Shown piece after piece: positions 27,405-29,381 of a stretch of 44,861 bases of DNA. The DNA lies in assembly GCA_913062955.1 (NCBI GenBank), contig CAJXZP010000028.1, positions 1-44,861 of the forward strand, written 5' to 3'. The stretch comes from an uncultured Flavobacteriales bacterium (GTDB taxonomy: Bacteria; Bacteroidota; Bacteroidia; Flavobacteriales_G; Salibacteraceae). The notes beneath the pieces were generated by a model. The model made no database searches and had not been told where the DNA came from. It worked only from the letters and a program-made list of their open reading frames with translations. Every line of letters begins with the position of its first letter. The first letter of the stretch is position 1. Made by a program: the position numbers and the translations under genes.

Positions 27405-28439
27405 TTAATTGGTTTTCAAAAACGCCCCAATTTTACCCGCTGCAAGTTTATTCGCAAACTCGTTTGGATGTGCATCAAATTTATTTACGGTTATACCCAA
27501 GCCCATATAGGGTTCGTATGTCTCTAATAGGTCCAGATGTAATACATTTTCTGATTTCCAAAATTCATTCAATTTTTGATGCACATCCACAAATTCATAA
27601 TTTTCCATTTTAACTTGCAAAAATGGAAATGTAACGACTGCAAATACACGCCCTTTTTCTTCTGAAAACCTTCGGATTCTATTTAGAACCTTTTTTTGAG
27701 TCTCCCATAATTCTTCCTGATAGGCTTTTTTCACAAAAGAAGAATACCTTAAAAAATCAGGATCTTGAATAGCAAACCATTTGAATTTCAATGTGTTTAT
27801 TAAATAACTTTGGGTTCCAAAATAACCTAATGTTTTTTCAAAATCGTAAATTCGATTGTATATTCCCTGAGTCTCGGGCATTAAATAATCAATATCATTT
27901 AAGCAATAAGACAACAAAATAATGTCAAATTCATACTGGTCTCGATCGAGTTTTCGAAGAATTTCTAGTTCCGTTTGAGAATTTATCCCATTCACCGCAA
28001 TTATATGTACTTCCAATTCAGGATATGTATTACGAAGTATATTTCCAAACCTATCGTCTTCATTCTTTATTCCATGTCCGGCAGTAAAAGAATCACCAAT
28101 TAGGGTCAATCGTCTTTTTCCAGGGGCAATTGCTAATTGATAATCTATATTATCTCTTGCTGTCATATTATTGGGTTGATAATACCTTTTCAACCAACGT
28201 TGAGAAATTTTACTCAAACCGAAGGAGTCTGTTCGATCTACAAAAAACCGGTAATAAGTCTCCCCGATAAAAAACGAAATAGAAATTAAGAGAAGGGTAA
28301 AAAGCACATTCCATCCTATAATAAAAAGGGTGCTTTTTTTACTAACAGACCTGGTGGACTTAAAAATCCATGCGAGCATACCCACCCATATACATGGCAA
28401 AACAAAAGCCATTACATAAAAAAAGTCAATTTCCTCCAT
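27405..28439 (-). CDS. Membrane-anchored SGNH/GDSL-type hydrolase
   Basis: 344-residue protein with two N-terminal transmembrane helices (about 6-26 and 38-58) and a C-terminal SGNH hydrolase domain. Block I is LTLIGDSFTAGHG with Ser117; the glycine and asparagine blocks are likely VNGINSQTE and LSYCLNDI, and the closing Asp-x-His is in FDAHPNEFANKL (about 322-324). It may remove acyl groups from a cell-surface polysaccharide or lipid, as related O-acetyl-modifying enzymes do, but no partner is adjacent. A 7-of-8 -7 box (TAGTATTG, 28454-28461) lies just upstream. Confidence 0.85.
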   Translation of the reverse strand: MEEIDFFYVMAFVLPCIWVGMLAWIFKSTRSVSKKSTLFIIGWNVLFTLLLISISFFIGETYYRFFVDRTDSFGLSKISQRWLKRYYQPNNMTARDNIDYQLAIAPGKRRLTLIGDSFTAGHGIKNEDDRFGNILRNTYPELEVHIIAVNGINSQTELEILRKLDRDQYEFDIILLSYCLNDIDYLMPETQGIYNRIYDFEKTLGYFGTQSYLINTLKFKWFAIQDPDFLRYSSFVKKAYQEELWETQKKVLNRIRRFSEEKGRVFAVVTFPFLQVKMENYEFVDVHQKLNEFWKSENVLHLDLLETYEPYMGLGITVNKFDAHPNEFANKLAAGKIGAFLKTN

Positions 28440-28538: not shown

Positions 28539-28871
28539 TTAGGATGCGCAATTCACACAAAATTTATTATGGGGTACGAGTACTATTCTTTTCAGTGGAA
28601 TGGGTAGATGGCACTTTCTACACCTCCCAAAATCATTACTTCTTAACTCCCCCTGAACTCGTAATACCCCGGCCAATTTCTTTTCCTGTGTACGTATAGC
28701 TGCTTCCACAACACTCTTATTATTGATGGCATCCATCCTTGAAACTCTTCCTATAGCACAATCCGGTGATATGGGTTGGGTTTCCAATTAATACTCCATT
28801 ATGGATTGATTTGTTTTCTCAATTTCCGAAACTAATAAACTTTCCATTTCCTTCCATTCTTTTTCTGTCAT
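28539..28871 (-). pseudogene. TraR/DksA-type C4 zinc-finger gene interrupted by one in-frame stop
   Basis: An ATG at 28869-28871 begins a frame that reads MTEKEWKEMESLL...IMEY and then meets TAA at 28788-28790. The same frame continues with no shift from the next codon (TTG) as ETQPISPDCAIGRVSRMDA for a further 82 residues up to the zinc finger, CRKC-X17-CVNC. Together the two parts give a 110-residue protein of the length and order usual for flavobacterial DksA/TraR proteins: helical coiled start, the ISPDCAIGRVSRMDAINNKS stretch, then the C4 finger. Family members bind RNA polymerase secondary channel or act as small zinc-finger regulators. The stop is either a nonsense mutation, a sequencing error, or a site of translational restart at TTG directly after it. 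The zinc finger itself is intact. Confidence 0.8.
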
Positions 28872-28970: not shown

Positions 28971-29381
28971 ATGGTTCAACAAATAGAATTTTCGTTACCT
29001 CCACTAAAAAGGGGGATTCATCTTATTAGTACCGAAATAATGGTACAACTCCCCCCCCTTCCAGAGAGTGGCTTAATGCATGTTTTTTTGAAACACACAT
29101 CGGCTGCCATTAGTATTAATGAAAATGCAGACCCATCCGTACGAAATGACATGCATACCAGTATTGAAAATATGATTCCTGAAAACCAATCGCATTTCAC
29201 GCATTTGGAGGAAGGACCAGACGATATGCCCGGACATATTAAACTCGCTTTGATTGGAAATGAAATCACGGTTCCAATCTCTAAGGGGAAATTAAATCTA
29301 GGAACTTGGCAAGGTTTTTACTTTCATGAATTTCGAAATAATCCAGCCCCAAGAACACTCGTAATCACTCTAATGAGCTAA
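28971..29381 (+). CDS. YjbQ family protein (UPF0047)
   Basis: 136-residue protein of the YjbQ/UPF0047 family. MHVFLKHTSAAISINENADP and FTHLEEGPDDMPGHIKLALIG are the family signatures with conserved His and Glu/Asp residues, and LGTWQGFYFHEFR closes the fold. Some members show weak thiamine-phosphate synthase activity, but the true role is not known. It ends two bases before the endonuclease III gene, so both share a transcript. Confidence 0.93.
   Translation: MVQQIEFSLPPLKRGIHLISTEIMVQLPPLPESGLMHVFLKHTSAAISINENADPSVRNDMHTSIENMIPENQSHFTHLEEGPDDMPGHIKLALIGNEITVPISKGKLNLGTWQGFYFHEFRNNPAPRTLVITLMS

Follow-up and report, generated by a model that had tools for sequence, protein, structure and literature searches.

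The question raised by this locus is whether a DksA/TraR-like zinc-finger gene interrupted by a single in-frame stop codon has lost its function, or whether its intact second half is still used. The window, that is the whole stretch of DNA analysed, is 44,861 nucleotides long and comes from a draft genome of 3.9 Mb (131 contigs, 95.8% complete), in which the window copy of the gene is the sole copy. On the minus strand, positions 28871 to 28539 translate in a single frame throughout as MTEKEWKEMESLLVSEIEKTNQSIMEY, a stop, LETQPISPDCAIGRVSRMDAINNKSVVEAAIRTQEKKLAGVLRVQGELRSNDFGRCRKCHLPIPLKRIVLVPHNKFCVNCAS and a second stop. The TTG after the first stop (28785-28787) and the terminal TAA (28539-28541) are both in frame with the upstream ATG. 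The first-pass annotation had described 27 residues, an in-frame TAA, a continuation at TTG in the same frame and an intact C4 finger; a re-reading of the frame agreed with it exactly and counts 82 open codons after the stop. The features are as follows.

28539..28871, minus strand: DksA/TraR-like C4 zinc-finger gene broken in frame by a single TAA; 111 codons when both stops are counted
28791..28871, minus strand: first half, 27 codons, from the ATG at 28871; most of helix 1, predicted coiled coil
28788..28790, minus strand: in-frame TAA at codon 28, where the intact congener G001 has a sense codon
28539..28787, minus strand: open frame of 82 codons and a stop, beginning with the TTG; covers the end of helix 1/tip loop, helix 2 and the C4 finger
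28794..28797, minus strand: GGAG, formed by the third base of the Met25 codon and the whole Glu26 codon; 6 nt before the TTG
28542..28628, minus strand: C4 zinc finger GRCRKC...CVNCAS; 4/4 cysteines kept
28971..29381, plus strand: yjbQ-like gene, divergent neighbour in 3/3 congeners; marks the interrupted gene as positional orthologue

The two halves belong to one gene

The genus was sampled by three genomes, the window genome (G000), G001 and G002. In G001 the gene is a continuous frame of 110 codons, which aligns to both halves without a gap over 110 columns at 64% identity, and all 24 of the 24 columns that are invariant in the multiple alignment are kept by the window copy. The gene order is common to all three congeners and runs from panB and an rluD-like gene, through a variable stretch, to the DksA/TraR-like gene, the divergent yjbQ, nth and parA-parB-dapB. 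The conserved position beside yjbQ-nth identifies the window copy as the positional orthologue of the intact G001 gene. Relative to this orthologue it carries a disrupting lesion, as expected of a pseudogene. What G002 retains at the same position is a remnant that contains several stops, has a large deletion of its middle part and lacks one of the finger cysteines.

On this alignment the two halves are one gene, and the proposal in the first-pass annotation that they form one 110-residue family member is borne out by the uninterrupted, gap-free, 64% identical G001 orthologue. That annotation had added that the first part would be unrelated if no homologue had similar N-terminal 27 residues; G001 shares 15 of the 27. 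A paralogue or an unrelated first half is ruled out by the gap-free 110-column alignment together with the synteny.

The variable stretch between the rluD-like and DksA/TraR-like genes holds a GDSL/SGNH-like hydrolase gene in the window (27405-28439, minus strand). The content of this slot differs in all three congeners, with other genes in L047 and L048, making it a small site of gene turnover. The yjbQ-like neighbour is patchy too, being full-length in only 10 of 35 family genomes.

Family membership and predicted fold

The finger half scored 34.9 bits against Pfam zf-dskA_traR (PF01258) and the read-through form 38.3 bits, both above the gathering cut-off of 24.9. Since the Pfam match is above cut-off and an uninterrupted, gap-free orthologue exists in the same genus, the interrupted frame is more than a chance open stretch. 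More specific assignments were not reached: the DksA equivalog models gave 26.5 bits against a cut-off of 115.5 (TIGR02420) and 33.3 against 105 (NF033459), and the TraR subfamily model gave 26.4 against 59.7 (TIGR02419). The window copy also differs from TraR in being a chromosomal positional orthologue rather than a gene of conjugation or phage.

The direct orthologues are unnamed Bacteroidota TraR/DksA-type C4 zinc-finger proteins of about 110 residues (...RxSRMDAINN...), which are 43-64% identical across both halves. The window copy shows their co-linear full-length homology and their invariant RxSRMDAINN and CxxC...CxxC residues. The uninterrupted reading frame expected of members is absent, owing to the TAA at codon 28, whereas most relatives found are open. 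Relatives named among the 80 listed in the genome-contig scan were Bacteroidota, many of them Flavobacteriales MAGs. A literature search on this subfamily (Bacteroidetes/Flavobacterium) returned nothing specific to it.

A structure model of the read-through protein (pLDDT 82) has a helix at residues 3-30, a tip loop, a second helix at 45-74 and the finger. Its best Foldseek matches were DksA2 (4ijj) and DksA (1tjl), with query TM-scores of 0.56-0.72 and an E-value of only 3e-3, and a profile comparison also matched DksA chains. The two-helix coiled coil plus C4 finger fold of DksA is thus predicted, and for the read-through protein only. This predicted fold is shared with the RNA polymerase secondary-channel factors DksA of E. 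coli (1tjl) and DksA2 of P. aeruginosa (4ijj), and the intact protein would probably bind RNA polymerase at the secondary channel and tune it. In contrast to DksA, which has 151 residues, the protein here has 110, and the window copy is interrupted by the TAA and has no DxxDxA string at the tip. No DxxDxA string was found when the sequences of the window copy and the G001 gene were scanned; a D/E-x-A at residues 37-39 sits in the predicted tip loop and might be its equivalent. The same genome also encodes a separate housekeeping DksA besides the window copy.

Recurrent disruption in Bacteroidota

A recognisable copy is present in 21 of the 35 genomes of the family sample, and five of these 21 copies are disrupted, each by a different lesion: a TAA in helix 1 in G000, a TAA in helix 1 in G025, lesions throughout the gene in G002, a TGA in the finger in G018, and a tip deletion with a shifted finger in G030. 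Housekeeping DksA, present in 34 of the 35 genomes, is disrupted in none of the 34, and the G000 copy (G000:C39) is intact. The difference in disruption is significant against housekeeping DksA (5/21 vs 0/34, Fisher p 0.006) and against the nth control (Fisher p 0.03), and none of the ten full-length matches to the neighbour yjbQ in the family is disrupted. One nth control, G018:C1:90027-90653, was flagged with one TAA, which may be a real lesion or just the terminal stop.

Strong matches were found in only about 30 of the 396 genomes of the class sample, so the gene is patchy. Further disrupted copies occur in G236, G315, G439, G477, G590, G804 (broken in helix 2), L124 and one copy in G531. 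G531 has an intact copy elsewhere and a second, frameshifted copy (L226, G531:C31:26700-27400). In L124:5001-5306 (Crocinitomicaceae bacterium DT_24, JABSPC010000151.1) helix 1 is hit by two in-frame stops, the second of them followed directly by an ATG; the tip, helix 2 and finger are fully intact.

The modest value of this pattern is that an accessory DksA/TraR-like gene is patchy and repeatedly inactivated in Bacteroidota, while housekeeping DksA is not. Repeated loss, unlike the retention of housekeeping DksA, suggests that the benefit of the gene depends on the environment.

The stop is most likely recent

Synonymous sites in the genes flanking the locus are saturated between G000 and G002 (pS 0.69-0.76), so a segment long free of constraint should be scrambled. 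An old stop in a dead gene would have left both halves in that state, and an old stop in a gene of which only the finger half lived would have left the first half so. Neither half of the window copy is scrambled. Identities of the first half to eleven outgroups are 3-13 of 27 for G000 and 5-12 of 27 for the intact congener G001; those of the second half are 38-44 and 40-46 of 81, respectively. Tajima relative-rate tests gave no significant acceleration, the largest chi-square being 3.6.

A home-made codon likelihood model was also applied, in which times and the branch dN/dS are bounded only and branch lengths are uncertain, owing to the same saturation. For the first half, neutrality over the whole branch was rejected once the branch length was at least 1.5-2 neutral substitutions per site; for the second half it was rejected from length 1. 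At a branch length of 2 the neutral model falls below the best fit by 8 log units for the first half and about 24 for the second, while at length 1 the rejection for the first half taken by itself is not strong (2.4 log units). The first half thus appears to have been constrained until recently. Given that both halves are as conserved as in G001, that the 24 invariant columns are kept and that the flanks are saturated, the stop is most likely recent relative to the species split.

G001 has a sense codon where the stop lies. For G002 the alignment at this point is ambiguous by one base, so on that column alone an older stop common to G000 and G002 is formally allowed; the conserved N-terminal halves speak against it. 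A gene that has long been finger-only is ruled out, since by the outgroup identities and the codon model the first half is still conserved.

An early-stage pseudogene is favoured

Taken together, the sequence comparisons indicate that the window copy is very probably a nonsense pseudogene at an early stage, belonging to a Bacteroidota DksA/TraR-like subfamily that is patchy and has been lost repeatedly. We propose that translation stops within helix 1, at the nonsense mutation in codon 28, with the result that the full-length protein would not be made, and that the finger half still looks intact because too little time has passed since the mutation for more decay. The gene would be accessory in Bacteroidota and lost independently many times, while the separate housekeeping DksA stays intact; function has presumably been lost in the window copy. 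Of the three readings in the first-pass annotation, a recent loss of function gains support from the intact G001 gene, the conserved halves and the codon model, a sequencing error is unlikely, and the truncated protein restarted at the TTG is not supported, as set out below.

As it stands, this is a routine early-stage pseudogene. Like other bacterial nonsense pseudogenes, it is an accessory gene that is intact apart from one in-frame stop and whose counterpart in a sister species has decayed, and nothing sets it apart from them save the high recurrence of loss in the 110-residue subfamily. With no second lesion in the finger half, a functional remnant is compatible with the sequence itself.

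Could the finger half act alone?

Such a remnant would arise if ribosomes stopped at the TAA and restarted at the adjacent TTG, or started there, to give an 82-residue working form that lacks helix 1. TraR of the F plasmid (73 residues) consists of a single helix and then a C4 finger, the layout that the leftover 82-codon half would have; it is the counterpart of DksA's C-terminal half and functions without the first coil (PMC9239242, PMC2613031). With this layout, a TTG abutting the stop, GGAG 6 nt before it and a finger half in which all invariant residues are present, the idea is physically reasonable. G025 and L124 likewise have stops in helix 1 only, the remainder being open, and in L124 an ATG follows the second stop.

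We nevertheless regard this restarted form as unlikely. The first half is as conserved as in intact copies, and a truncated state would therefore have to be young in the window lineage. An excess of lesions in helix 1 was looked for and not found: of seven early-stage cases three lie there (p about 0.29 under a uniform model), as do 22 of the 54 one-step nonsense routes (41%) anyway. Elsewhere lesions hit the finger (G018), helix 2 (G804) or the whole gene. TTG starts are rare in the window, with one among 13 checked ORFs, and that one assigned by mechanical rule only. The GGAG, a possible ribosome-binding match, arises from the Met25-Glu26 codons, of which Glu26 is common to G001, and is probably a coincidence. 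The DxxDxA string that TraR requires close to its N terminus is also absent from the window copy. With relatives' stops spread over the gene and the first half constrained until recently, the TTG-restart form put forward in the first-pass annotation finds no support; nor would a finger-only protein be as unusual as was supposed there, as TraR already has that architecture (PMC2613031, PMC9239242).

A stronger version, in which a helix-1 stop turned a DksA-like factor into a TraR-shaped, TTG-restarted one and the same conversion took place independently in G025 and L124, is if anything slightly less probable still. A finger-only product, if made, would show how easily a DksA-like factor can become a TraR-like one.

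Sequencing error and readthrough

The stop could instead have been introduced by an error in sequencing or assembly, with an intact gene in the living cells. The remaining coding sequence is in order, with no other lesion, and the genome is a draft of many contigs. Against this, neighbouring genes are free of such errors and substitution errors are rare in assembled consensus sequences. The same gene is also independently disrupted in many relatives, which gives a real lesion a high prior, and we assign an error a small probability.

Stop-codon readthrough or recoding to give the full-length protein is the least credible alternative to the early-stage pseudogene: both halves are conserved in one frame, but TAA is the usual terminator in the window, ending 12 of 13 checked ORFs, and is therefore an ordinary stop here; in E. 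coli a T directly after TAA makes for strong termination; and G001 has a sense codon at the site, while relatives' stops lie at other positions. An alternative genetic code is ruled out by the same 12 of 13 TAA-terminated ORFs.
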